Source: Pachyseris speciosa (lineage: Eukaryota; Cnidaria; Anthozoa; Scleractinia; Pachyseridae). Taken from it: DNA of 64,000 nt. The translations under genes were made by a program, and so were the position numbers. The notes under the pieces were generated by a model. That model saw nothing but the letters and a program-made list of their open reading frames with translations, ran no database searches and was not told where the DNA came from. Below are positions 19,043 through 60,768 of this stretch, in pieces (position 1 is the stretch's first letter; every line of letters starts with the position of its first letter). Location: contig JAEMWC010000107.1 in NCBI GenBank assembly GCA_016490735.1, positions 907,001 to 971,000 on the forward strand, read 5' to 3'.

Positions 19043-22000
19043 ATGGTCTTTCGTTGTATTACAGTCACTGCACCAGGAAAGATCATCCTTCACGGAGAAC
19101 ATGCAGTTGTCTACGGGAAGGTGTGAGATTATAAAGACCGTAGAAGTGGTGTTTTCTCACTCGTGAAGTGTCCTCCCACCATAAAACAGGACCGGGGACA
19201 GGGAATTTTCCCGCGTATTTAATTGTTCCCTGACTACTTTGATACATATTGTATAAACCTCAGCAGCTGGAATCCCTGGCTATTTTTTTAGCACAAACCC
19301 ACCTTCTCACAAAATTAAATATGTGACAGTTCTTTTAATAAAATTACTTGAATAGAAAGCTGTTGCAACCGCCATTGGTTTAAGGACTGTATTGAAACTG
19401 GAATCACAAAAAGATGACCTTGTCACACTCAATCTGGTAAACTGCAACGCTTCTTGCAAATGGAAACGAGATGAGCTGCACAGTGATGTCACAAGGCTTC
19501 TTGGTTAGTTTTCAATTTGTTCATCATTCATATCTGCCAACTCAGTCCATGAGGCAAGATTTCCGCACAGCCACATACATGAATTATGTATACATTTTGT
19601 GACTCAAATTCAGTTCATGCTCATCGTTTTTGGAACAGGGTTAATATGACAGTGACACATGTATAATAAATGTATTGGGCTGTGTGGAAATCTTTCTTTT
19701 GCCCTTACTGACAACCCATGGTTCTCCAACAATCTTTTGGTATGAAAATTAAGGATGGCTTAAGTAGGTACCTTTTTGTCTGAGGAATTGAAAAGACATT
19801 TGCTTCTGTGGGAATTCGTTGTGAAGTGGGATGTGAAGTAGGCACAAATAATCAAATAATTTGGTCCATAACAGGAAAAAGTTTTCAAGTTTTGGCCTTT
19901 CGATGTCCAGCTACATAATTCAGACAGCTCTTACTTATGCCATGTCATCAGCTTCCCCGTGGGGTCGACCCCCGGGCTAACCAGGGGGATTGTAAAATCA
20001 GTCAAGCAAACTTGATGAATTTCCCTGGGGGGTCGGGAATCTCTCAAGACAAAGTCCCCTGAGTGAGATGTCTCTCAGCTGAACATCCCTGTGACATCCT
20101 TTTCAAACTTGTGAATTCCCCCACCCCTAGTCTTTGATCGTAAAACAATGTCAAGATATTCCCCTACCTTCAGGCAAAGAATCTCATCTATCTCCTTGTA
20201 TTCCCCCACATATCTCCTTGGTAGGCCCGGGGTCAACCCCACGGGGAAGCCGATGACATGTGCATTAGACATGCAGTATACAAAACTTAAAGAAGAAGCA
20301 CTTATGGCAGATGATACAGTTTACTTTAATGATTACTGTTAAATAGTTTGATTCAATCATCATCAGGGGTAGATTTGTCCTGTTGTACCCAAGAAGGGAG
20401 TGAGTTATTTGGCAAGTTTGTGGATCATTGTGACATTACAGACATTGAAAAGAAGCTCATCAAGGATGCAATAACTGTCTTTGTGTTTCTGTTGGGAAGA
20501 ATTGTGGAAGATTTAAATAGGTGAGCTCTGCTACTTAAACAGTAAGATTGCAGCTGTAAAGAAATGCTTTATTTAATGTTTAATAAATGAGCAGGAGTGT
20601 TTTAGGACTTGATAAAACATGATTTGTGAATTTATTGAACGGCTCAAAAAGCTTTACTGTATATCTATCCTTTCTTATTTACTAAAATTTAGATTTTGGG
20701 TAGATATATGTGGCCTAGAGAATCAGACATAAAATTTAGCCGTGTCTTTTCATCAGATATAAAGACACTCATTAAAAAAATTAATTTCTTTTGTATTTCC
20801 TTCATGAATAATGAATTAAACATGAGGAAGATGTGTTTCTTCAGAGATTCAAATGCTGAGAAGTGGGTTGAAGAACGGAGGTGCAGCCAAGTATTTTTTT
20901 TTATTACCATCTTTGGAAGTCTAACAAAACCTAATGAAATACTCTTTTGAGTGTTTAATATAGCTTCTTAAGCCACTAATCATTCTTGAAGAAATTCAAA
21001 GCAAAAGTTCCCCAAATTTTATGATTATGAGGATCACTTAATATCTAAACCCTTCTTCACACCAGTGATTTCCTTTGTTTTATCTCTTCATGAATTATAA
21101 ATTAATTTTAAATTTAGAATTGTATTTTTGTACCTCATTTTTGCACTTGAAAGAAAAATTCAAATCAAAATACTTTCAACACACTTTTCACTTCACAAAA
21201 CTAGTTTCGCTGTAACAACAGCCTCATCAGTTGATTTTTGTAAATAACATTATTTTTCTTTTATTCTGTATGTATCTTAACAAAAGCACAACTTGAGATG
21301 TTCCTTTTGTTTGCTTCCTTCATCTATATTCTCTACTGCACTAGTTGAGAGAATTAGGTGAGAGGTGAGTTGCATAAGAATTACCAGTGGTTTATTTTGC
21401 GTACTCATTTTGTTTATTCCAATTAATGAAGTAGTGACATTGCAAGAAGGAAATAGGTAGTCTGCTCCCTTTAAAGAGGTTTAAATAAATTAATTCCTAA
21501 ATTTTAATAATAACTGAGTATACAGTATGTTGTAAGTCAAAATGAAATTTTTTTGCAAGACTGAGCTCTAAGAAAAAAGGTTTGAGAACCCAAAACTCTG
21601 AACCTTTGAAATTCAGGGTACCCAGCATTTAAGTTCTGTGCAAAAAACTAAAACTTCCTGTCACCCAAAGGCAAAAGTTAGTCACCAGGGGCCACTACAT
21701 GTTGCTAGAGCCCAGCCCTGCTTTGTCTCCTAACCCTAGTCAGGGCTTCTGATAGGTCACGGAAAAAAGGGGATTTTCAGGGGCAAATTCGTGGAAAAAT
21801 CAGCTGATATTGCGGAATTTTTGCGGAAAAATTGAAAATTTGTGGGAAAATCGGCTGATTTTGCGGGATTTTAGCAGGAAAAAAATCAAAATTCGCTGAA
21901 AAATTGGCCGATTTCACAGGATTTTAGCGGAAACATGGCAAATTTTGAGGGATTTTCAGGGGCAAATTCAAGGGAAAATCGTCTGATTTCACAGGAAATT

Positions 22001-29950: not shown

Positions 29951-32900
29951 TCATCGTCCCGCCCGAAGCCAGCCCCAGACCGCGTCCCATTCAACATTAA
30001 GATCCTGACACAATTCTTTGAGGGTGGCCACTGTAGCAAACAAACACACCAACTTCAACAGATTCACGATGGCATGATTTTTTGTTGCAGTATTCTGATT
30101 TCTCTTCTCCACATTTGGGAACATATTATTCCTGTACGTTTCTTCTACGACTTGTTTGGCTCCTGGCCATGCCCCGGGTCCCATCAGGCGGTACTGGGCC
30201 GCGCAACAGGGTCCAAAATAGCACTTGAGGGCTAAGAGAGGGTCCCTGAAAAAGAGCCTTCTGATGTTTGGTTTGCAACCAATCAGATCTGCAATCTGAT
30301 CTTTGTACGGAATACTTGATACCTATGGAGAAAACAGGAATAAATATATCATTGTTGGGTCGTCTGTACGGAAAGAAAGGGTATTCTAATAATTTCCAAT
30401 TTAGGCTAGGAAAAAATTTGAGTATGTTGTAACAAGTGTGACTTTTCATTCAAGTCTAGACCATAGTGGGAAGGTAATGAAAGAGTTTAGACTGCAGTGA
30501 TTTGTATGTTGTCGGTCATTTGGATAACAGAGCTGTTCAGAGAGAAATCTATGGAATATCCGTGAGATACTGAATATGTCTGTTAGTGGATCTAGTCGAG
30601 TTTTGTGAAAACAAAATCTTATCGTTAGTTAAGTGTAGTTGATACAATTTGCTCAGACTGGGAAACGAAAGAAAGAACAGCTAAAAAACTGATTTCTTTT
30701 ATTAGTAGATCACATTAGGAATAATTAGTGTTTGCGTTAGTTTCCGAACAGGCAGGCAGATGTTTTAATGCAGAAATAATTGACACTGATTGTTGATAGG
30801 CTGGCACTATGGTACAAGGGCAAATTTAGTAGGGTAACAAAGCACCGCTGAAGTAGCGCTGGAAACTGACTATTTAAGCTTGAATGGAGACCGTTATCAA
30901 TTTTCCCTCAACAACATTACTATTTGTAAAAACGTAAGGGTCGTGAGAATAAAGAAAATTATCACAAAGGAGAAAATGACTTGATGTGTTTACAGATTCT
31001 CTCCACTAGTACTATAGGAAATGTATGACGCACAGTTTAGAGATTATAGAGGTGATATTGCCTCAAAGGGTTAAAACAGCCCAGAAACCTGTCTTTTAGT
31101 TTTATCGCCAGCCTTGCTGGTAGTTTGGATTCCAAAAAATTTATCTTTATACCTGGATCGTGAGTCTTCTTGAGGCAAAGAACACTTCTCTTAGCAACCT
31201 TTTCTCCAGTCCGATATCATGCAGCATCGTTTCTCTGCTGGGTAGCCTGGCCAACCCCTTAAACACGCGAGTCACCCACCGCGCCTGCAGCTCGGCCGCG
31301 GGAAAAAACGCACCGGAGGACTGGATCAGACCAACGATAGCAAGGGTTGACTTAGGGTGGTGGGGTGGGAACACTTGTTTGTAAAGCGATACTGCGTTGT
31401 CTTCAACCGGAAGGATGTATTTATCTTTGAGGAAGTCGAAACCGATATCATAACCCGTGCATGATATCACTACATCCAAGTTATCCACCTTTGTTCCATC
31501 GGAGAACACAACCCCTTTCTTGGTGAAATACGAAACCTTAGGTTTCAGTTTTATTGTTCCGGTAGCGATGCGAAGTGGGAGATCGTCACTGATAACCGTA
31601 GGGGCATTCAGAATTCCGTGCCGGGGGCGAAGCCCGTATGTTTCGTGGTCGAATCTTTTCTGCGCGCTTCGCAGTGATAACCATTCTTTTATCTTCGTTG
31701 GGAGATTTTGGAAGAACCTCGTTTCCACGTGCTGGTCCCATGGCAACCCGCGCTTTTCCAGGCGGGATATGACCCAGGCCCCTCTATGGGTGCTTAGGTA
31801 GACCTGAGAGGCGTGGCGGCTAAGCTCAACGGCGATATCTGCGGCGGAGTTACCAAGACCTATAAAGAAAACAGGTTTGTCTTAGAACACGTTTGCCAGG
31901 GTACAATTAAGGCGACAGAAATAATACCTTATAACTTCTGGTTAAGATGGTTTATTGGAGTGTATAGTAGAGGCATGAGTGCTTGCATTAGTGAATGAGC
32001 TTACTTTTCTGGTAGTTTTTCTCCGTGACTGTGTGTATGCAATACTGAATTAACAGTTGTTCGCGAGTGCTTGAGTTTGTTTTACTGTTCTTTGATGTTT
32101 TTGTGATTTGTGTTAAAAAATTATTTTCCTTGTGCTCGTTCCTTTCAAAAACCAATAAACTTGGAAACTGTTTCACCGAAGTTTAGCCTAGTCTCAAATT
32201 TTGATTGAACAACATCGAAATTGGAACATTGGCATAATCATTATTTAATCCGAACGGTTCAAATATATGATTTTCGTATATTTCATTCTCACATATTCAT
32301 CACTCACGGGTATATTACGAACCAACTAAACGACCAGCTCCCAGTTGGCTTGTTAGCTCAGTTGGTAGAGCGCTGCACCGGTATCCCAGAGGTCGTGGGT
32401 TCGACTCCCGTACAAGCCTGAATTTCAGTTTTTGAAGCTTTATTTTCACTACTGCTTAAGTAGTGTTCATAACTGCGATGATCATTCACAACTTCATACA
32501 ATTCACTTAGTTAGTTCAACTTGATTTAACGCAGTACAGTCTGTTTTACAGAAATTTCTTCATCTCAAATGCCCTTTGTAGTCACATGGTACAAAAACGC
32601 TATGCTTGGCCGCAAACAACTCACTGGGACATCATTTTAAAATAGTAATTTTCTTTGTCTTGTCCCAGTGCGTTGTTTGTGTCCCAGCATGGCGTTTATT
32701 GTACCACGTGACTTACATCCTGCAAAGGGCCCATGAGCGACATTCACTTTGTAATTTCCCGTGGCTGGGTATATTTCTGCTTGACCTATTTTCCCGATCA
32801 TACAAAAGTCTGGAAATGGTTCTTATGCTTTGGTCATACGACAGCCTTAAGAGACCAATAAATCACAAGCTGCACTCTTCTTCTGGTGAATTCGAAAAAC

Positions 32901-46032: not shown

Positions 46033-49000
46033 TTACTTTTCGCTTAAAAACCTTACGCAAATAGCAACCACCATAACAAACAAAACCAGAATCTTCAGGT
46101 AAACAGCACTGGTATTGCTTCCCTGGTCTGCTTTCCGCGGCAAGCTCCGGGTCTTCGTGGCGTAAATCACATTACCAGGCGCATCCTCAATGGCCTTCTT
46201 CGCTCCTGCCCAAACACCAGGTCCCATGAGGCGATACTGGGCCGGCGTACAAGGGCCAAAAAAGCACCTTAGGGCCAAGGCAGGGTCGCTGAATAATAGC
46301 CGCCACAAGTCTGGCTTGCAACCAGCCTCAATGGCTATTTCATCGCAATAGGGAACGTAGTCAACCTGTCAGGAAAAAAAGAGAAAGAGAAAGAAATATG
46401 TTTGCTTGAGGCGGATCCACGATATGCAAAGACGTCCGTACTATATAGTTCTTATTTCACGACTAAGCTCTCAGTTGAACACCTTGTGATCAAAAAAGTA
46501 AGTTTGCTACTAATCCCTATCCAGATTCTAATATTTCGTTTATGCACACAAATATCCGCAGCCTAAAACGTAATTGAAAAAATTTTCAAACTCCTTTATT
46601 AGATGAACTAGATTTTCATTTTAATGTAATAGGCGTAACAGAAACAAGAATAAACAGCTCGACTGAGAACTTAGATTTTAATCCTTCGATCTTGCATTAT
46701 AATTTTGAATACCTGCCAACGCCTCTTTCAGCTGGAGGTGTAGGCATGTATATTGATGAGCGATTTCAATATCAAACAACAGAGAGGTGTTCTAATGAAG
46801 CCTTCCAGGCACTTTTTATCGAATTACATCTTCCCAAAAGTACAAACATAATATGTGGAGTATTGTATAGGCGGCATAATTCCCCTGAGCGTTTTCAGGA
46901 ATATTTTGATTCGACAATGGAAAAGCTTAGCGCCACTGGAAAACAGATTATTCTTATGGGTGACTTTAATATAAATCTTCTCCATGTTCATACTAGTACT
47001 CACGCCCAAAATTTTATGCTATCTTTGCAAAGCCTGAACCTGACTCCGACAATTGACAAACCAACAAGAGTTCACAACAACTCTTACTCATTAATTGATA
47101 ACATCTTTATCAACAGTCTAGAATATAGTATCTGTAGTGGAAACATAGTCTCGGATCTAACAGACCACTTTTCTCAATTTTGTATACTAAACTTTTCTAC
47201 TAATCGAGATCTCTGTGATCAATCGAAATCTAAGCGGCTAACTCGTGACTTCTCAAACTACTCGGAAACAAAGTTCCTAAGTGAGCTATCTGAAATTGAC
47301 TTAATGGGTACAATTTGTAATAAGACAGACATAAACAAATCATTCTCTACATTTCACAATAAACTGAACAAGCTCCTCTATAAGCACGCCCCATTAAAGC
47401 CAATTTCAAAACGCAGTCTAAGAAAACAACAAAAACCCTGGATAACAAAAGGCATCAGAAGATCAATTAAGATCAAGAATTCACTCTATTATTCTGGTGA
47501 CAGTAAAACCTACAAAATTTATCGTAACAAAATACTGATGCTCACACGAATAAGTAAAAGGAATTTTTTCCACAACTATTTCGAAGATAACCTAAGTAAC
47601 ATTAAAAAGACTTGGGAAGGTATAAACAATCTTTTAGGTCGCAAACGTAAAGCTATCAAACATATCACCTCGCTTAAACGCCTGGGATCTGATCAAATCT
47701 CATACAACTCCTCAGACCTTCCTGACATTATGAATGAGTATTTTTCCTCAATTGGTCATAACCTAGCTTCCAAAATGCCAAACCCGCAGAAGGAATTTTT
47801 TGATTATCTTCCAAAATCACGTAATGCTGATTCTTTCTTTTTCAATCCAGTAACACAAACTGAAATTGAGTCCGAAATTATGAACACGCCATTAAACAAG
47901 GCTCATGGATTGTATTCTTTCCCCACTCGCGTCTTGCGATCAGCAAGACATATTCTTAGCCACCCGCTATCTGTTCTTATCAACAAGTCGGTTGAACATG
48001 GAATATATCCCACTAAATTAAAGCTTGCTAAAGTAATCCCAATCCATAAAGCCAATGACGAATCTGAGCCATCCAACTACAGACCCATATCACTACTTTC
48101 AGTCTTCAACCGAATCTTTGAAAAAATGATGTACATTCGCTTGAAATCATTTCTTGAAAAGTTCAGTATTCTCTGATTCACAGTATGGATTTCGTGAAAA
48201 GCGGTCCACTGAACATGCTATTTTGGAAATCACCAATCATATTCAAACTAATATGGATAGAAAGCTGTACACCTGAGGTATATTTATTGATTTACAAAAA
48301 GCTTTTGACACAGTCGACCACTCAATACTTTTAAAGAAACTTGAACATTATGGTATACGCGGGATTGTGAATGATTGGTTTACTTCCTACCTTACTAGTC
48401 GCAAGCAAATAACTGAATTTGGCCCCTCAAATATATCTAAAAAAGCGACAGTATTATCTGGAGTTCCCCAAGGATCAGTCCTAGGGCCTCTGCTCTTTCT
48501 TGTTTATATAAATGATATTTGTAACAGTTGTAACCGAATGAAGTTTTACCTATTCGCAGACGATACGAATCTTTTATATGCAGATAAAAAACTAAAATCC
48601 CTGGAATCTACGGTAAACAATGAGCTCTGTAAGCTTTACGACTGGCTAATAGCGAACAAATTATCTCTAAACATTAAAAAATCTAATAACGTTATTTTTC
48701 GACCAAGACAAAAAAATGTCAAATACGAAGTTAATTTAAAAATATTCAACCATCATACCAACTCTTACACATCTTTGGAACGTAAAAGTTATGTTAAATA
48801 TTTAGGCGTGCTTATTGATGAGAACCTCTCTTGGAAACATCATATTCTACTTATAGCCTCTAAAATAAGCACATCGATTGGCATTATTGCTAGGCTAAGA
48901 CATTTCGTACCACTTAATACTTTACAACATATATACAGATCGCTGATTCAACCCTATTTGTTATATGGTATAACAGCGTGGGGCCGAGCAGACAAAATCC

Positions 49001-52000
49001 ACAGAAACAAAATCCTATGTCTTCAGAAAAGTGCCCTTCGCCTCATGTTTTTTGGTGATTATAGAGCTCACGCAGTACCCTTCATCATTTCATCCAGTCT
49101 ACTACCTCTAGATCTTCTTTACTTCAAGTCAGTTGCCGTCTTAATGTATGACGTCTCAAATAATACATCGCCACCTCAAATAAGTAATTTATTTAATTAC
49201 CAACATAATATTCATTCACATAACACAAGATCATCAACAAGAGGCAACTTCTTTCTCGAATACTCTAGATTAGACAAGCAAAACATGTCCTTTTCAAGAT
49301 ACGGTGTTAGAGTCTGGAATAACCTACCTAATGAAATTCGTCAAATGCCTAAAGTGAAATTTAAACGCAACATTCACAATATGCTCCTTCAGGAAACTCT
49401 CGGAGGCGAATGAGTATATTGATCTATTGGATTTGAATATGTCTTGAAAACTAAACTCAGTTCATTCTATTAGCTTTCTATCTACATTATCCTTCCAGCT
49501 TCTCATGTAATCTGCCTTTTTTTCTCCTGAGAATCTTTGTTTTTCCCAAATGTTATTAATACTAGTCAGTATTCAGTATTCACCTTATCTTAATGTATTG
49601 TATGATAATAATTAATTTTACTTAGTATTGTAATTGTATTGTAATTGTAATTATTCACTTTGTATTTAGTATTCAGCTTATTTTAATGTATTGTGCGATA
49701 ATAATTAATTCTATTTAGTATTGTAATTGTATTGTAATTGTATTGTAATTGTAATTATTCATTTTGTATCTAGTATTCAGCTTATTTTAATGTATTGTAC
49801 GTTAATAATTAACTCTACTCAGTATTTTAATTGTATTGTTATAATTGTAATTATTCTACTTAGTGTCAAGCCACTGCTCGCCTCGAATAGCTATAGCTAA
49901 CTGCGAGCAGTGGTACATCCTATTTTGTATTTTCTCAATTTTTCTTAATAAACTTGAACTTAATAAACTTGAAACTTGAAACTTGAACCTTTGCTTCCTA
50001 ATCACAACAAAGGAAGCTTTCGGACTAAAGTCGACTCTCTACTAGCCTTTCACGCAGTCCTTTTTAGGGGACCTGTTTGTGGGGAGGAGGTGAAATATGA
50101 GTCCTCCAAAAACAACTGCGTAGGAGGCTAATCCTCCGCTTGCGGACCCTCCTGTAAACAGACACCAAACCACGGACCTGGCGATTTCCCCAGTCAAACT
50201 CTATATTTATAACCTTCTGTAAACGGACACCATTCGTAAGCAGAAACGGAAACTTCTTTGAAGCACCAAGGGCTAGAACTCAGGAAAGACGAGCTAAAAC
50301 GGCAGTTTATAGAGTCTGCAGTGCAGGCGTTTGTTTTCTTTTCTTTTCTTTTTGCGAGTGCCATTTAAAATAGTCGTTCGTGTATTAGGCAGCCATCTTG
50401 GATTTTCAAACCGAGAAGAGTTGGAGGAATCAAAGGGGGCTCAAAGTTCCTTCGTCTTTCTGTCTGTCGCTCAATCCCTTGGTCACATTTGCTTCTCTCC
50501 CCAATTTCCTTGTTCATGTGGGGTGACTTTAACAGCACGCAGGAAGCTCAATCGGCATAATGTTATTTTTTCATTATCCTTGCTCTTGTCATGCTAAACC
50601 ATGCATCTTTCTTCTTTCATACTCGAGCTTAAAATTTTACCGTCTTTGCTGCTTCTCACCCCAACAGAAACTTTTTACCTTTTAGTTGCTAATTATAGCA
50701 CTATGTAGGACGCACGTCATGCATCAACACAGTAAATGACCTTCAATTGCAGCAGCTATTTTCAGGAAGCAAATGAGGCAGAAAAACAACTGGGCAACCA
50801 AATGACGTCGTGAAATTAAAAGTGGAAAAAGGTGATAACAACATCTATTTTTGTGTAAACTTCAATGTTATTTCCATGTTTTAAAACAAAACTTGGAATC
50901 TATAGATTATTTCCAACAATTTAGCATCACTTTGTTGTAAGAGCAGAAGTTCCCAACAGGCTTGAGCAATCGCATCTGCAAATTCCACCAAGGACCCCAG
51001 GCTCAGCAGTATCACACATATTTTTTCAGACAACTAAGGAGAACTATACTGTTGCTTTGTGAAAGTGCAGTGCTTATAATGACTGTTTTGTTTTGCTTTA
51101 TTAATGAATTGAATGAATTTATCATTTACTCAGCACAGCTTTACAGAGGATACAGATCGGAAATAAATATATTATAGATAAAGAATAAAGATAATAACAT
51201 CTAAATAAGGAGTGGATTGCAATCATCCAAATAGCAGAGACTTGGAATCTAGTAGATGATCGCAAGGGAATACACACCTCTTACTAGCCGAGTTCAAGGT
51301 CTGTAACTGTAAGTTACAGACCAAGATTTTTCCCGTTGATTTATGGCCCAAGAGCAAAGCGCACGTGCCATAAATTAATAGGAAAAAACAAGGATCCATA
51401 ACTTACAGTACGGACCCAGAAAACAATGTCAGTAAGATATTTACTATACCACTGAGGTTAATCTGGCACGGGGGAAAGAAAACTAGTTGAATTTAAGCGG
51501 GCCGTACTGTAGAATATGGTCCCCAAAATTGACCAATCACAGTGCGCATACTAAGTGAGACATATAATAAGAACTTCATTGATAAGAACAGCATTAATAA
51601 GAACTTCTTCTGTAAAAAATATTTCTTTTTATGCACTAGGCTAGATAATTACAGTAATACGTATGACAATCAAGCATAGAGTTCTTAAGGACTTAACGAA
51701 AAAGTGAAAGAGAATTTGATTTAGTGATACTTGGAGGCAAAGAAATCCAAAGGTAAGAACCAGTAAATTTTAGGGAGTGTAAACCATACTGGGTGGTATT
51801 GACTACGAAAAGATTTCCATCACATGATTGGCATGTTGGTTAGGGGTGGACAGAAAGGGTAAATTCAAAATACTCACTGAAACAAGGAGGTAAAAGACTG
51901 ACCACTGATAAAAAAGTGAGAGTTTTATTATTAGATTGCTTATAACTTCTTACCTGTATAGTGTGTCGTTTTGAAGCATAGTACCTCGCTGCCATTTCTT

Positions 52001-54317: not shown

Positions 54318-57300
54318 ATGGAGGACGATTTGCATGAAACGATCGATTCCGAAACGTTTGTCTTGGGAATCGACATCGGTACAACTTCGATCAAAGTTTC
54401 CTTGTTGAAAAGAAGCAGTAGAAATGTTGTTGAGAGTGTTCGCTTCGAGACAAGGGCAAGTGTTTCCGATGGGGAAATTGCAGAGCAAGATGTAGGGAAA
54501 ATCTTAGCTGTTTTACAACATGCTCTCGGCCAACTGTCACCGCAGTTCTTAGCCAAAGTGAGCAGAATTGGGATTTGCGGACAGATGCATGGATGTGTGA
54601 TGTGGAAAGGGCGATCTTGTTTGGCTTGGAACTCATTTGGCAATTATATGGTGACTGGAAACAATGTCTCTAGTTTAGTCACCTGGGAAGATAGAAGATG
54701 TACGAGAGAATTTCTACTCTCACTTCCCCCCACTCAGCAGAAAGTTCCTCTTTCTACCGGTTTCGGGTGTGCTACACTGTTTTGGCTACAAAGAAATCAG
54801 CCTAGTGTTTTAGAACGTTACGACTGTGCTGGAACCATCATGGATTTTGTCGTGTGTATGTTGTGTGGAATGGACAAGCCTTGCATGTCTTCGCAGAATG
54901 GTGTTAGTTGGGGATATTTTGATGTCGAGAAAATGACGTGGGAGGTGGATCTGTAAGTTCTAATCTGTACATCTTGAAGGAGTTAGCATCTAGTTACAAA
55001 GTGATTGTTTTAGAAGTTTCCAGTTTGAAATGATTTATGATGCAAACACAAGAATAAGCACTGGCATCAAGTAACAGGGTGATGATGATTTGAATTTGTA
55101 AACAACCTGTTTTCAATTGAGTCTGTTAATTACCACTACACCATCATAATAATAATAAGACTTTATTTAACCAGGGTAGCACGTAATAGCCACAGGCTAA
55201 TAAACTTGTGGCCCTGATTTAATCAACTAATTACAAGTTAAAAATAGAACATCACTTAAAATTATGAATAAAAACATGCAATTTAAATAATCAAAAAATG
55301 ATCATATAAAACTCGATTACTAAATATGAAAATGATGTAAAAATTGCTGGTCCCTAAAAATCTTAAAACACGAAAATTTGGTTTATCAATGGAGTTGATA
55401 ATGTAAATTGACCACCATACAGGGATTCTTACTCCACATGTTGTGCTTAAAACAGGCTACAGAATCCACTTTCCTAGTAGATAAGGGTACATTATTCCAG
55501 AGTCTTGAAGCGGTAGGACAGTGATCAAAGATGTGATTTACCAGTCTGAAGATGTACCGTAGCATACCGAAGAATTTTGTTTCAAGGTCACAAGCTTTTA
55601 AGGTAATGGAAGTCTACAACTCCATAGGCAATGAAGCTAAGGATCAAGTCAAGATGTTAACACAAAGTCAAATTAGTCAGCAGAAAATTCCCTGGGATAC
55701 TACATCTTAAGCCACGTAAATCACGTATTGGATTGCCACACTGCTTGCGTGGTTGTCCTGATGGTGCAATAGTAACACACCCAACTAGCAACAGAGGGAT
55801 GTGGGTTCAAATCCCACCCATGGAAAATTTTCTTACGAACATTAATTTTATGCAATTTATACTATATATACTACAGTGCCATCACTAATTTTTAATTAGG
55901 CAGGGATCGATGAGCAAACAGTATCCAGAGAATTCAGCTATTGTGGCATAGTCAATATGCTGTTTTCTATCAAAGTAGCCAGCAATCTAACTCAAAAATC
56001 TGGGGAAAATCCCCAGCCTCCGGCCTTTACTGATGGCCCTGGCTTAAGTATGCATAACATGTAGTATGATAAGTGTCTTATAATATGTTTTGATAAAACC
56101 TTTTTGTTTTATCACTGCAAGTTTATCTCTTTGCTCCAACAGCCTAAGAAGTGCAAATTTCCCCACCCATCTCCTGCCAGTAGTGATAGCACCTGGCACT
56201 GTTGCTGGCAAGCTGCAGAAGTCTTTCATTGGCATTCCAGTTGGAACTCCTGTGGGGGTGGCATTAGGAGATTTTCAATGCTCTGTGCTTTCCAGTACAT
56301 CCCAGTTGGGTGATGCAGGTGATAAGCAGACAGATGTTTAGTTAATAATAGTATTGTTCATATATGAGTGTACTTAGAGTGCAAATTTAATGAACTGTTG
56401 ACAGAAACATACATTTCACTATCAAAGCTGTGGTAATAAAAGAATTTTCACCCCTGTTGATCTTTTTTGCCTTCAGCTTCAGTTGCACAGTGAAAATTCA
56501 CTATATCAGGGTAAATCTTAAGTATGGCCTTTTATCTGCAGGATTGTGTTCATTAATATATAATGGGGTTAGTTACAGTATAATTGGGGTTCGATCCACA
56601 ACCTTCCTCTTCTTTTCCTCATAATTTAATACTCATTTGTTTAGTGTTTATTTATTTACTTGTTGTTTTTACATCAGTCCTCAAATTCATTAGTAACACC
56701 ATTCTTCCCTTTTTGCATGTGTCTCTGGGTCCTTGGTTCTGTCACTTGAGAAACAACAAAGATGGTATGGATTTTCAGTGAGAGTGACTCGTGTACATTT
56801 GGAGGTTAATATGCGCACTCCTTCTTTGGGTCTTGGATCTGCCTACATAATGCTACTGCTCAACTACTCATATCCACAAATTGTACATATACTGTACAAC
56901 TAAGTGTAAAATATTAGGTAATTACTTTTAATTAGCTTAATATCATGTAGCAAAGAGCAAGAGACTGTTTTTGGTTTATAAAAAATGAAGGGTTAGTGCA
57001 CTCATTCTGTTGTCCTATTGTCTGTCTCTGTTTCAGTTTTTAATATTGGCACTGCCTGTCAGCTAGCTGTGGTTATTCCTGATGATGTCCACAATAAAAA
57101 CATTGCTCAGCCTCGCCATAGTGTTACCACAGACATCCAAAGCAATGCACTACAAGTTCTTCCATTCTTTCAAGGAACAAGGGTTATTACAGCTGCATCA
57201 CTCTCAGGTAATGTTACCGTAAGGTGGCAGAGTTACTCTGATTGAAAATCTGTTTTTGTGCAATGTAACATTGGCTCATTAAGGAATGATGATGGTAGTG

Positions 57301-60300
57301 ATGGTGGTGGCCATGGTGGCATTAGCCAATATACTCATCACTGGGATGGACAGGTAGGATGGAATCGCACTGTGCAATTAGAGCGGTTTTCAATTGAGTG
57401 TCGAAAGTAATTCTGGTTTTACTTTGGCTTTGCATTGCTTCGCTCTGTGATTGGCCGAGAAAACTTGCACCACTTTCTCAACCAATGAGAAGCAAAACCA
57501 AAACCAATCAGGATTTGCACGCGCGTATTTTCCCCCGCTTTGCGTTGGCTACTTGTAATTGCTTCGTATTCTGATTGGCTCATTGCTGGGACTGCTTACT
57601 TTTGTTGTGATTGGTCAGAGTAATTGCTTTGGTTTTGGCTTTACACTCAATTGAAAAGCGCTCTAATCTCCAGAGGAAAACCTCTCTTTACTAGAATAGA
57701 GATACCTTGTTATAGGAAATTAAGCTTGTGTTAATTTAAGTATTCGAAATTAACGCGACTTAAATTAATGCAAATTGAAGGAAAGATTACTTTCCAATAA
57801 AGGAAATGGATCATGTGTATTTTGTGCACCCCTCGACCGATATATCGGCTGATATATTGACCGATACATCGGCCGAGTGTCGGTCGACATATCGACTGAT
57901 ACTCGGCCAATGTATCGGTCAATATATCGGCCGACACTCGAGCGATGTATTGACCAAGATATGTCAGTCAATATGTCGATCGATATGTCGGTCAAGATAT
58001 CGGTCGAGGGGTGCACAAAATACACATGATCCATTTCCTTTAATGGAAAGTAATCTTTCCTTCAATTCGCATTAATTTAAGTCACGTTAATTTCGAATAC
58101 TTAAATTAACACGAGCTTAATTTCCTATAACAAGGTATCTCTATTCTATCGAGTATCGGTCAATATATCGGCCCACACTCAACCAATACGTTAACCATTG
58201 ACTGTCGGTGGAATATCGGTCGACTGTCAGTGGTATATCGGTCAACTGTCGTGTACTGTATTATAATCAGGCATCAAATATTTTAAGCAATGAAAACGTA
58301 AAGCTTGTGGGATGTGGCTGGAGTGACAAGGATACTTCACAAATTAATGTGATCAAGTAAGTGATCAAGTATGTGATCATGTGGCCTTAGTGCCTTTTGA
58401 GTGGCTTCAGCTTACTTGATCACATTAATTTGTGAAGTATCCTTGTCACTCCAGCCACATCCCACAAGCTTTACATTTTCATTGCTTGTTTTATTGATAT
58501 GTGGGTACTTGAGCCTGAGCATTAGCTATGCCATGCTGATGAGGCCTAACAAGGCCGAAACAGCTGTCCATGGCTGCTAATGCTTGGGCTCAATCTTTGC
58601 TTTGGTAGATTTAAGGGGTAATGCCCGCTACCATGTGGCCTTAGTGCCTTTTGAGTGGCTTCAGCTTACTTGATCACATTAATTTGTGAAGTATCCTTAT
58701 CAAATATTTTAGACTGTGTTGAGACACTTGGCAATGAAATCGATTTCTGAGTGTTTTGGATACATCTCCCCCTTCCCCCACAAACAATGTTGATGTTTCC
58801 ATTTCTTCTTTTACTGCACAGACCACAGCGGCTACATAATATTGAATTGGGGGCTTGGGGGTATCACAGAATAAACGCTAGATGTAAATAAATTAGAACA
58901 AGTGCTTAAATATCGGAACGCGTGTCTAAACGGCTATTAATTGTCGCCTTTAATTGTCGCTCACTGTAGGTTAAATTACGTCTGCTACGCAGGCTGCAAT
59001 CAACCGTACACAAGTATGACTGAAGTATATGCACAATGTCGGTAGCCTATCGATCGACATGTTGGCCGACAGTCGGACAAACAATCGCGGTCGATATGTC
59101 AACCGACATATCGACCGATATCTCGACCGACCTATCGATCGACATATCGACCGACATACTTCGGTCGATATGGCGGTCGAGTGTCGGCCGAGTATCGGTC
59201 GATATGTCAACCGACACTCGGCCGATGTATCGGTCGATATATCGGCCGATATATCGGTCGAGGGGTGCACAAAATACACATGATCCAAGGAAATTAACGC
59301 GAAATAGGTGCTAAAATTAGTGCGACTTACAAAAAGAAACAGAGTTTGTTGACACAACAGGGGCAAATTTATTTTAACGACAAATGCAAAACTCCGCAAA
59401 GCAACCAATGTTCGTGGAATTGTTTCTAAACGTAGGGGTTAAGGGAAGGAATCTGGCCACTTAGAGCGTTCTTTACAGTGACCATGATACCGGCGGATCT
59501 CCACCCTAATAAAATATTGATTTTTCCTTTTAAAGGTTATTGTATTAAAAACAATTTAACTTAGTGAAAGATTGATTTGAAATGCAGTGCCCAGAAAAAA
59601 GCTATTGTTTCCGAGTCGTCAAGAATGTCTGAAGTATATCGAGAATTTGGGGCCACTTATGCGTGTTTTCTCTAGCGACACAAGCACAAGCGCAAGCATA
59701 AGCGCAAGCACCGTGAAAACGGGCTTAACGCAAGCATAAGCACAAGCGCAAGGATCAAAATTTTTCCTTTTCCTTGTGCTTACGCTTATGCTTGCGTTCG
59801 CTTGCGTAGTGTTCGTTTTCACTTGGCACAAGTTACTTATGCTTGCGCTTGCCTGTGCTTCGCTAGTAAAAACCAGGCTTAAATTGATGACCCGGAAATT
59901 CAAGCCAGCAAAAATTAACGCGAATTAAATTAACGCAAATTTTTAAACTTCGCGTTAATTTACTTTTATGTAATGTTTAATAAATGAGTAGGAGTGTTTT
60001 AGGACTTGGTAAAACACGAATTGCGAATTTATTGAACGGCTCAAAAAAGTTTACTCTTCATCTATCCATTCTTGCGCTAAAATTTGGATTTTGGGTTATT
60101 TTGGCCTAGAAAAACGGATGTAAGATTTAGCCGTGTCTTTATCAGCTATAAAGACACTCATTAAAAATTAATTTCTTTTGTATTTCCTTCATGAATTATT
60201 AATGAGTTTTTAATAGGTAGGAAAGCTTAACCCCAATAGTACTCCTGTCCACCTGCACCTACTCCAAGACTACCAAAATAATATGGACAACATGGTTTCT

Positions 60301-60768
60301 GTTGTAACAGGTGGGAACACTTTGGCTTCTTTTGTCAACACACTGATGTCATGGATGAAGGATCTTGGAATTGACGGCAGCCTTCCATCTACTGATGAAA
60401 TTTATCAGAGAATTCTTGATTGTGCAGACAAGAAGGGTTCAACGTCACTGAAAGTAATTCCAACATGGTGGGGTGAGCGGCACACTCCTGATAAAAGGGG
60501 ACAAGTATGCAATGTAACATCAGACAATGTTTCGCTTGGTGATGTGACACTTGCACTTTGTCAGGGACTTGTGGAGAATTTAGAGGAGATGATGTCAAGG
60601 GAATTTCTACGGTTATGTGGTATACAAAGAATTGTGGGTTCTGGAAGTGCACTGATGAGAAATCAGGTTCTTCAAAAACAAGTTGAACAGGTTTTTGGTT
60701 TACCGCTCATGTTGAATGACAGCTCAGATGCATCAGTCGGAGCAGCGCTGGCTATTATTTCAGATTGA
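54318..60768 (+). CDS. SHPK: Sedoheptulokinase (SHPK/CARKL)
   Basis: This FGGY-family kinase converts sedoheptulose to sedoheptulose 7-phosphate, feeding the non-oxidative pentose phosphate pathway in the cytosol. Four exons join in phase: 54318-54952, 56143-56318, 57037-57207 and 60221-60768 (TGA), giving 509 residues against 478 in human. The motifs are the N-terminal phosphate loop GIDIGTTSIKVSLL (17-30), GICGQMHG, TWEDRR, and GTVAGKL with ALGDFQCS, whose aspartate (about 255) is the expected catalytic base. Exon 4 adds TGGNTLASFV and the ATP-site segment GSGSALMRNQVL...NDSSDASVGAAL. The exon 4 acceptor used is gtag|GAAAGC, because the acceptor four bases earlier would bring in a stop. Intron 3 (3.0 kb) is crowded with palindromic elements and a hammerhead ribozyme. 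The gene appears intact. Confidence 0.95.
55746..55831 (+). mobile_element. tRNA-like SINE head in SHPK intron 1
   Basis: It has an A-box-like tcctgatggtgcaatagtaa and a good B box in gtgggttcaaatcccaccca. The T-arm hairpin is sound but the rest does not fold as a tRNA, so a SINE head is likelier. A possible tail-type sequence (aataataataagactttatt) lies at 55147. Confidence 0.5.
57379..57667. mobile_element. MITE family 'agagcrgttttcaat', copy 3
   Basis: The best preserved copy. Left end tagagcggttttcaattgag and right end ctcaattgaaaagcgctcta are inverted repeats; inside, tgattggctcattgctggg and attgcttcgtattctgattg match the other copies. Located in SHPK intron 3. Confidence 0.8.
57692..58148. 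repeat. 457-bp palindrome with a 12-bp-unit core
   Basis: Two arms of about 140 bases (57692-57833 and 58009-58148) are near-perfect reverse complements; they run from tagaatagagataccttgtt to gtgcacccctcgac. Between them is an array of about fifteen 12-base units around cgatatatcggc, each itself nearly self-complementary. Similar units continue past the right arm to about 58255. Open stretches on both strands are a by-product of the 12-base period. Confidence 0.85.
58278..58699. mobile_element. Hammerhead-bearing element (retrozyme or Penelope pseudo-LTR like)
   Basis: A 68-base segment starting catgtggccttagtgccttt is repeated directly at 58378 and 58632 (period 254). The hammerhead lies between the two copies. 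To the left, 58278-58360 is an inverted copy of the region following the first repeat (shared ggatgtggctggagtgacaa). The arrangement of one hammerhead per unit between direct repeats is that of Penelope pseudo-LTRs and of metazoan retrozymes. No protein is encoded. Confidence 0.65.
58511..58591 (+). ncRNA. Hammerhead ribozyme, type I
   Basis: All core parts are intact. CTGATGA is at 58536-58542. Stem II is ggcct/aggcc (58543-58547 with 58552-58556) closed by aaca, then GAAA at 58557-58560. Stem III is ac/gt (58560-58561 with 58566-58567) with loop agct, and the cleavage site falls after gtC at 58568. Stem I is long: gccatg/catggc (58530-58535 with 58569-58574), gcattag/ctaatgc (58519-58525 with 58577-58583) and gagcc/ggctc (58511-58515 with 58587-58591), separated by internal loops. 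A very short stem III with a long stem I is characteristic of hammerheads in Penelope-like elements and retrozymes. It lies on the SHPK sense strand inside intron 3. Confidence 0.92.
59034..59286. repeat. Half copy of the 12-bp-unit palindrome
   Basis: About nineteen units related to cgatatatcggc, such as gtcgatatgtcaaccgacat, run into the same arm start as in 57692-58148 (gaggggtgcacaaaatacac, then atgatcca). The arm is then truncated and followed by aggaaattaacgcg. Confidence 0.8.
59655..59880. mobile_element. Hairpin MITE of gcaagcataagcac units
   Basis: Left ttttctctagcgacacaagc and right gcttcgctagtaaaaaccag are inverted. The arms consist of aagcgcaagcataagc words on one side and gcttatgcttgcg words on the other. 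Non-coding, in SHPK intron 3. Confidence 0.7.
59969..60212 (+). repeat. Dispersed repeat R1, copy 2
   Basis: Matches 20563-20826 in the same orientation. It ends only eight bases before the SHPK exon 4 acceptor, so the branch-point region of this intron lies within the repeat. Confidence 0.75.

Follow-up and report, generated by a model that had tools for sequence, protein, structure and literature searches.

Head-to-head retrozyme insertions and their ends in the genome of the stony coral Pachyseris speciosa

Retrozymes of the coral Acropora millepora have units of 220-245 bp, occur as linear and circular RNA, and cleave at about 0.8 per minute; retrozymes are also found in other stony corals, and Penelope-like elements (PLEs) have been proposed as candidate helpers on the basis of co-occurrence, tandem copies, and shared hammerheads (PMC7229834). 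The protein of the Anolis PLE Poseidon uses two neighboring internal start sites for reverse transcription, and both target strands are cut and extended (PMC11167929); rotifer Penelope copies form inverted repeats, most commonly head to head and optionally with a 31-bp tail on one of them, and have duplications of 8-10 bp where these are given (PMC3846280). Here, we describe a 413-bp retrozyme insertion in intron 3 of the SHPK gene of the stony coral Pachyseris speciosa, within a 64,000-nt stretch of assembly GCA_016490735.1 (contig JAEMWC010000107.1, positions 907,001 to 971,000; hereafter, the window), together with its copies elsewhere in the same genome. Insertion ends directly record the positions at which reverse transcription started; as in PLEs, most of the retrozyme ends map to two fixed internal sites, with one site for each arm, and the helper question thus becomes testable with one protein and one RNA.

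The window element shares with the described coral retrozymes a type I hammerhead, a non-coding unit of a few hundred base pairs, tandem arrays, a GC content below 50%, longer target-site duplications, a compact self-pairing unit RNA, and a stony-coral host (PMC7229834), but its unit is 254 nt long compared with the published 220-245 bp, and the head-to-head arms and fixed ends reported here were not found in the accessible text of that description. Like plant long terminal repeat (LTR) retrozymes, it is non-autonomous and hammerhead-processed, with a probable circular RNA stage; the plant elements, as characterized in the accessible parts of the sources, have type III hammerheads, LTRs with a primer-binding site (PBS) and polypurine tract (PPT), and 4-bp duplications (PMC4918200, PMC7761336), unlike the type I motif and 13-16-nt duplications seen here. 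The window element is a recent retrozyme copy of this known kind and not a stand-alone SHPK element. What is new to us is the record of head-to-head insertion ends and the rule by which they are paired; fixed insertion ends of retrozymes were not found in the open-access literature, supplements excepted.

The insertion and its hammerhead

The insertion consists of 1.26 sense units of 254 nt and 0.30 unit (76 nt) in inverted orientation, arranged head to head, with unit positions counted from the first base 3′ of the hammerhead cleavage site. Its parts are listed in window coordinates, with A and B denoting the two sites at which reverse transcriptase (RT) starts.

57208-60310, plus strand: SHPK intron 3, host of the insertion, from tblastn of SHPK relatives and GT and AG ends
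58273-58285, no strand: left 13-nt target-site duplication, ATCAAATATTTTA, exact match to 58699-58711
58286-58698, plus strand: retrozyme insertion, 413 bp, head to head, from direct and inverted repeats, the target-site duplication, and genome copies
58286-58361, minus strand: inverted arm, with its outer end at RT start site B (unit 172)
58362-58377, no strand: junction between the arms, 16 nt of locally repetitive filler
58378-58698, plus strand: direct arm, 1.26 units, with its outer end at RT start site A (unit 130)
58445-58486, plus strand: A-B interval (unit 131-172), a tail-like stretch between the RT start sites, from end clustering
58699-58711, no strand: right 13-nt target-site duplication, ATCAAATATTTTA, exact match to the left copy

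The insertion is recent, because segments 58378-58444 and 58632-58698, which are 254 nt apart, are identical (67/67), and the inverted arm differs from the reverse complement of 58411-58486 by one mismatch in 76; self-comparison returns a 71-nt direct repeat and a 77-nt inverted arm, and the direct part has 100% matches to arrays elsewhere in the genome. Among random pairs of sites at the spacing of the duplication, 1 of 4000 reached 13 nt (possibly the site itself), as did 4 of 3888 within the repeat-rich intron. Folded as a circle, the unit reaches −88.8 kcal/mol with 65% of its bases paired, compared with a mean of −65.7 for shuffles (z −4.6, with none of 100 as good), and its GC content is 0.449. 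These are the features of metazoan retrozymes: a tandem non-coding unit of ~150-450 bp with a type I hammerhead, GC below 50%, a duplication longer than 4 bp, and a self-paired unit RNA. No frame of at least 110 aa is listed in the 413 bp, and the RT and GIY-YIG domains of a PLE are thus absent from it; there is no poly(A) or simple-repeat tail at its ends, and no LTR design is seen in it, although PBS, PPT, and LTRs were not specifically searched for. In the same intron, foldback repeats rich in CGATAT-like steps (57692-58148 and 59048-59287) flank the insertion.

A first-pass annotation of the window had proposed a complete type I hammerhead in the sense strand of SHPK intron 3, with the following parts as we now place them.

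58509-58593, plus strand: type I hammerhead with an extended stem I of 18 outer and 6 inner pairs and a UAU/U internal loop
58536-58542, plus strand: catalytic core CUGAUGA, aligned to the Rfam model
58543-58556, plus strand: stem II, 5 bp, with an AACA loop
58560-58567, plus strand: stem III, ACAGCUGU, 2 bp in the monomer; an 8-nt palindrome able to pair between two copies
58566-58568, plus strand: GUC cleavage triplet, with the predicted cut after 58568 (unit position 254)

The motif is present as proposed, with a full core, three stems, a cleavable triplet, and the open stem I of the type I form. The CUGAUGA core, the stem II with its 4-base loop, and the 2-bp stem III can all be read directly, and cleavage had been predicted at the same base, the GUC triplet being followed by the cut in established hammerhead chemistry. 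For stem I, the paired structure with an internal loop stands, but the count of 18 pairs does not, since the 18 outer pairs and the UAU/U loop are joined by six inner pairs to give 24. Candidate tertiary-contact elements, as judged from sequence alone, are the internal UAU/U loop, separated from the core by six pairs, and the stem II loop AACA. A structural descriptor combining core, stem II, stem III, at least five of six inner stem I pairs, and a cleavable base matches this one site in the 64 kb (both strands) and nothing in 150 dinucleotide shuffles.

The covariance-model check that the annotation had suggested, with Rfam Hammerhead_1 (RF00163), finds a match at the proposed place (58530-58574, plus strand; 33.9 bits, E 9.3e-7 for 501 bases searched), which is 0.1 bit under the cut-off of 34 bits. 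At cut-off, an Rfam scan of the whole window lists three tRNA matches only, and the hammerhead is absent; in a permissive scan of the whole window, the clan match kept is Hammerhead_HH9 (58515-58593, 32.5 bits, E 2.9e-4), which has a cut-off of 52 and which we take to represent the amniote intronic hammerheads. By the annotation's own rule, a score under the threshold, this shortfall in RF00163 score would refute the assignment, but weighed with the remaining evidence, we do not regard it as a refutation.

An 88-nt segment (58508-58595) folds much more stably than 200 shuffles (z −7.9), and its optimum is not the catalytic fold, which lies 6.0-6.1 kcal/mol above an alternative pairing of GCUG with CAGC. 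The Rfam consensus, as a control, likewise lies 5.0 kcal/mol above its own optimum, and folding energies therefore cannot discriminate activity. Two cores cofold at −41.5 kcal/mol, compared with −37.6 for two single optima, and the cofold optimum is identical to the drawn dimeric hammerhead; since the window locus has one hammerhead, this dimeric form is impossible within one transcript. Many type I motifs with a weak helix III are described as cutting as dimers and not as monomers (PMC7761336); a cloned monomeric coral retrozyme cut well (PMC7229834).

Genomic copies and their ends

Searching the source assembly (984 Mb, 2368 contigs) with the direct arm, with 40 of 914 first-look candidates scored, we identified at least 109 matches in at least 37 loci, including the window, most of them 97-100% identical; with this fraction scored, there are probably more copies in reality, and the sample is biased toward those most similar to the query. 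A 91-base query (best 40 of 979 candidates) adds six contigs to this list. Arms of both orientations are present in 26 of the 37 loci, which include tandem and head-to-head arrays, and in the largest array, L054, 17.65 units in one orientation adjoin 16.35 in the opposite one, with 99.9% identity. A 33-nt core has 110 exact copies in the 36 loci that were fetched in addition to the window, with 33 of them in L054 and none in six loci. Loci L073, L074, and L079 are one insertion duplicated together with its flanks at 95-98% identity, and are either segmental copies or assembly haplotypes.

Where an insertion is head to head, each of its outer ends corresponds to an RNA-3′ end and marks where reverse transcription began. 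We analyzed 39 insertions at the 36 fetched loci and the window, counting only ends inside the stretches read, and observed 62 RNA-3′ outer ends, 23 of which lie at site A (unit 120-134, centered on ~128), 32 at site B (unit 159-176, ~170), and seven elsewhere. Thus, 55 of 62 ends, or 53 of 60 with L073, L074, and L079 counted once, fall within 33 of the 254 unit positions, these intervals having been chosen after the ends were seen. Among outer 5′ ends, two of 12 are at A and none at B (two of 10 with the triplicated insertion counted once).

The two sites do not appear to be used independently within an insertion. There are 26 head-to-head insertions, three of which run off the stretch read, and the 23 that could be scored comprise 17 A/B, four B/other, one A/other, and one other/other, with no A/A or B/B. 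Where both ends are at A or B, they are discordant in all 17 cases, with a chance under independence of ~5e-6. Duplications of 13-16 nt flank 16 of the 23, with 16 distinct sequences (one with a mismatch); 14 of these insertions are A/B, and two are B/other, with the other ends at 107 and 115. The A side is on the left in seven of the 14 and on the right in seven; the window insertion is one of the 14, with B at 172 and A at 130. Only one of 13 one-orientation insertions (in L080) has a duplication near its ends, of 11 nt.

Candidate enzymes and templates

The same genome is rich in GIY-YIG domains. A search for them, in which 150 of 5249 candidates were scored, returned many matches in opposed pairs; 93 of the 150 share one score, and several are in long open frames, which suggests recent PLE activity. 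All 12 of the loci L089-L100 belong to the same PLE family, which has RT and GIY-YIG domains in one frame (in L100). In five opposed pairs, picked as short and opposed and not by their ends, one arm is longer than the other in every case, by 88, 92, 86, 96, and 88 nt; all five have 11-12-nt duplications, and each arm has a minimal hammerhead-like core, CTGAAGA...GAAA. The A and B ends of the retrozymes and the unequal arms of the PLEs thus point to one architecture with fixed, unequal ends that is common to both in this genome. The retrozyme insertions resemble described PLEs in having two internal RT starts, a tail on one arm, head-to-head arms, a duplication, and a type I-like hammerhead (PMC11167929, PMC3846280). 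Unlike PLEs, the retrozyme lacks a listed open frame, has a canonical hammerhead with a stem III and a long stem I, and does not detectably resemble the PLE family read here in sequence.

Because the insertion ends follow the PLE pattern (a pair of neighboring internal RT starts, with the tail confined to one arm), which a PLE of the same genome also shows, we infer that retrozyme RNA is copied by an enzyme of PLE type, with priming from both target strands; this is the best explanation of the data as a whole, and we consider it probable. Multimeric RNA of 254-nt units would be cut by the hammerhead and, going by published coral work, would probably be closed into circles. A Penelope-type reverse transcriptase-endonuclease would cut both target strands ~13-16 nt apart, and each strand would prime reverse transcription of the retrozyme RNA, with one copy starting at A (unit ~128) and the other at B (~170). 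Each copy would continue past the cleavage site for anything from part of a turn to ~17 turns, and joining the two head to head would give inverted arms, the A-B tail on one of them, and a flanking target-site duplication; the window insertion would be a recent event of this sort, in sense orientation in SHPK intron 3.

We lean toward a more specific form of this, in which animal retrozymes are hitch-hikers on PLE machinery and a pair of RTs, one per strand, start at different fixed sites of one hammerhead-made RNA circle and travel up to ~17 turns each, with either strand using either site but the two never using the same one. The balanced placement of A on the left and right (7/7) agrees with the absence of a strand difference in vitro. 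The rule of one A and one B adds how the two starts are used and, if true, amounts to a division of labor within an insertion; more generally, such insertion-end fingerprints are a clue to how tiny mobile elements spread.

Several observations weigh against this explanation. Seven RNA-3′ ends are at neither A nor B, and a wider search for duplications in the 15 uncut insertions without one near their ends found none in 11 and only a repeat-internal match in four. Compared with the abundant PLE family, the retrozyme unit has no blastn hit at E≤1 in one comparison and only two hits of 17-20 nt, at chance level, in another; its similarity to a second GIY-YIG family (L106/L107) is not beyond chance level, and in these two families, no sequence common to retrozyme and helper was found at the RT start region. 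The duplications are 13-16 nt for the retrozyme and 11-12 nt for the PLE family, and the A-B distance of ~42 nt differs from the 86-96-nt difference between the PLE arms. Given the unequal duplication lengths, the helper may be a PLE other than the family read here. For the Anolis PLE in vitro, the two strands were not seen to differ in start site, a rule of one A and one B is not reported in the accessible text, and hammerhead mutants are without effect on insertion (PMC11167929). Finally, a linear multimer would leave the same arrays as a circle.

For an arm to extend 17 units beyond the cleavage site, the template must be either circular or a long multimer left uncut, and it is possible, although we do not favor it, that the template for PLE-type integration, an account that overlaps with our own, is a long linear multimeric transcript of an array. 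PLE mRNA has been proposed to contain several copies, and in vitro the main substrate was RNA that had not been processed, with insertion unaffected by the hammerhead mutations (PMC11167929); sufficiently long arrays are also present in the genome. Against this, the RNA of coral retrozymes accumulates in linear and circular forms of ~220-240 nt (PMC7229834), and the 34 units of L054 have only five mixed positions, neither of which is decisive. Unit variants within loci comprise 39 fixed and 299 mixed positions, and they are shared in 22 of 96 cases between the first two arms of a locus and in 653 of 10917 between arms of different loci (L059 and L080, which each hold two insertions, were left unsplit); this sharing is compatible with both circle and linear multimer. 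Mobilization by a long interspersed nuclear element (LINE), with L1-style twin priming and the inverted arm as an ordinary 5′ inversion, is unlikely. It would suit the 13-16-nt duplications; 15-bp duplications of Nematostella repeats have been called LINE-like (PMC4918200), and the window itself contains an APE-type LINE (46578-49413, plus strand, in two frames) that has endonuclease and RT domains. However, twin priming predicts a variable second start, and the starts are instead concentrated at A and B, with a different site for each end in all 17 insertions that have both ends there; the window ends are without the poly(A) or simple-repeat tail of such an event, and the L054 arms of 16-17 turns each are not 5′ truncations.

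We give very little credence to a role for the SHPK motif as a host-used ribozyme that cuts SHPK pre-mRNA and tunes splicing in the manner of the conserved amniote intronic hammerheads, a comparison that the first-pass annotation had drawn. The motif is intact and, like those hammerheads (PMC6155905), is of type I and on the sense strand of an intron, and cutting of SHPK pre-mRNA at the predicted site is possible on sequence grounds. Unlike them, it arrived with a recent mobile insertion, one of the 37 family loci found, whose internal copies are near-identical; it is a single hammerhead for which a non-catalytic fold is favored, and its HH9 score is far under the cut-off (32.5 compared with 52). 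Nothing suggests a host function, and what resembles a gene regulator, an intronic ribozyme, has proved here to be a newly inserted mobile element; the likeness to mobile hammerheads of retrozymes and PLEs, which the annotation had also raised, holds, as the motif is inside a multi-copy retrozyme insertion. That the element is a chance sequence or an assembly artifact is the least credible account of all: the RF00163 shortfall of 0.1 bit and the difficulty of assembling long perfect inverted arrays speak for it, but the absence of the motif from all 150 shuffles, the 110 exact 33-nt cores in the fetched loci, and the 16 distinct 13-16-nt duplications speak against it.

Host gene and further observations

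The placement of the hammerhead in SHPK intron 3, on the sense strand, agrees with the exons located by tblastn of SHPK relatives (~54318-54953, 56144-56317, 57039-57207, and 60311-60768) and with GT...AG splice sites. The gene name is fair, sedoheptulokinases being most of the named matches listed; exon 1 matches Pfam FGGY_N, and the exon 4 piece has no Pfam family match. In an unrooted SHPK tree, the window gene groups with Actinia and Nematostella (support 94/91). A second gene in the window, FMO, has identities of 80% to Acropora digitifera, 82% to Porites evermanni, 79% to Montipora foliosa, and 62% to Nematostella. These values and the SHPK grouping led us to reject a sponge as host and point to a stony coral. 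The RT of the LINE at 46578-49413 shares up to 96% identity, over part of its length, with unnamed relatives.

The source genome has at least 66 other type I hammerhead matches, L015-L022 included, with scores up to 51.1 bits and several of different sequence (74 of 127828 candidates scored). Two of these loci (L018 2305-2413 and L019 634-742) contain a stretch that matches unit 71-177 at 93% identity and so stops shortly after site B; it lies near a hammerhead only 83% like that in the window and is perhaps a shared start-site module. Within the window, a CTGATGAG...CGAAA match at 21205-21230 (minus strand) has no Rfam match up to E 1 and is without GUC or stem I, and we attribute it to chance; there is also a one-mismatch match to this pattern at 60652 (plus strand). 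Matches to microRNA families on 58300-58475 and other palindromes are far under cut-offs and reflect foldback DNA rather than microRNAs.

Exact pieces of the element are absent from the viral contigs and phages searched, and the core pattern from a genome-contig collection, none of these collections containing animal genomes. A generic type I pattern identified 14 stretches in IMG/VR, none of which has more than four of the six inner stem I pairs and 13 of which have no repeated 20-mer nearby, and we do not consider them relatives. Five of these contigs (L003, L007, L008, L009, and L014) have GCTGATGAGGATTTAATATCCGAAACTAGAGTC in common, a hammerhead-like core with a 4-bp stem II and only three of six stem I pairs, perhaps of another hammerhead type.

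Elsewhere in the window, a 303-bp palindrome (10798-11100, 97% identity) has a tRNA-like stretch in each arm (10873-10946, minus strand, and 10952-11025, plus strand) resembling a region of the tRNA-Thr at 32347-32419. It is possibly a head-to-head tRNA-derived short interspersed nuclear element, with an architecture like that of the retrozyme insertions.

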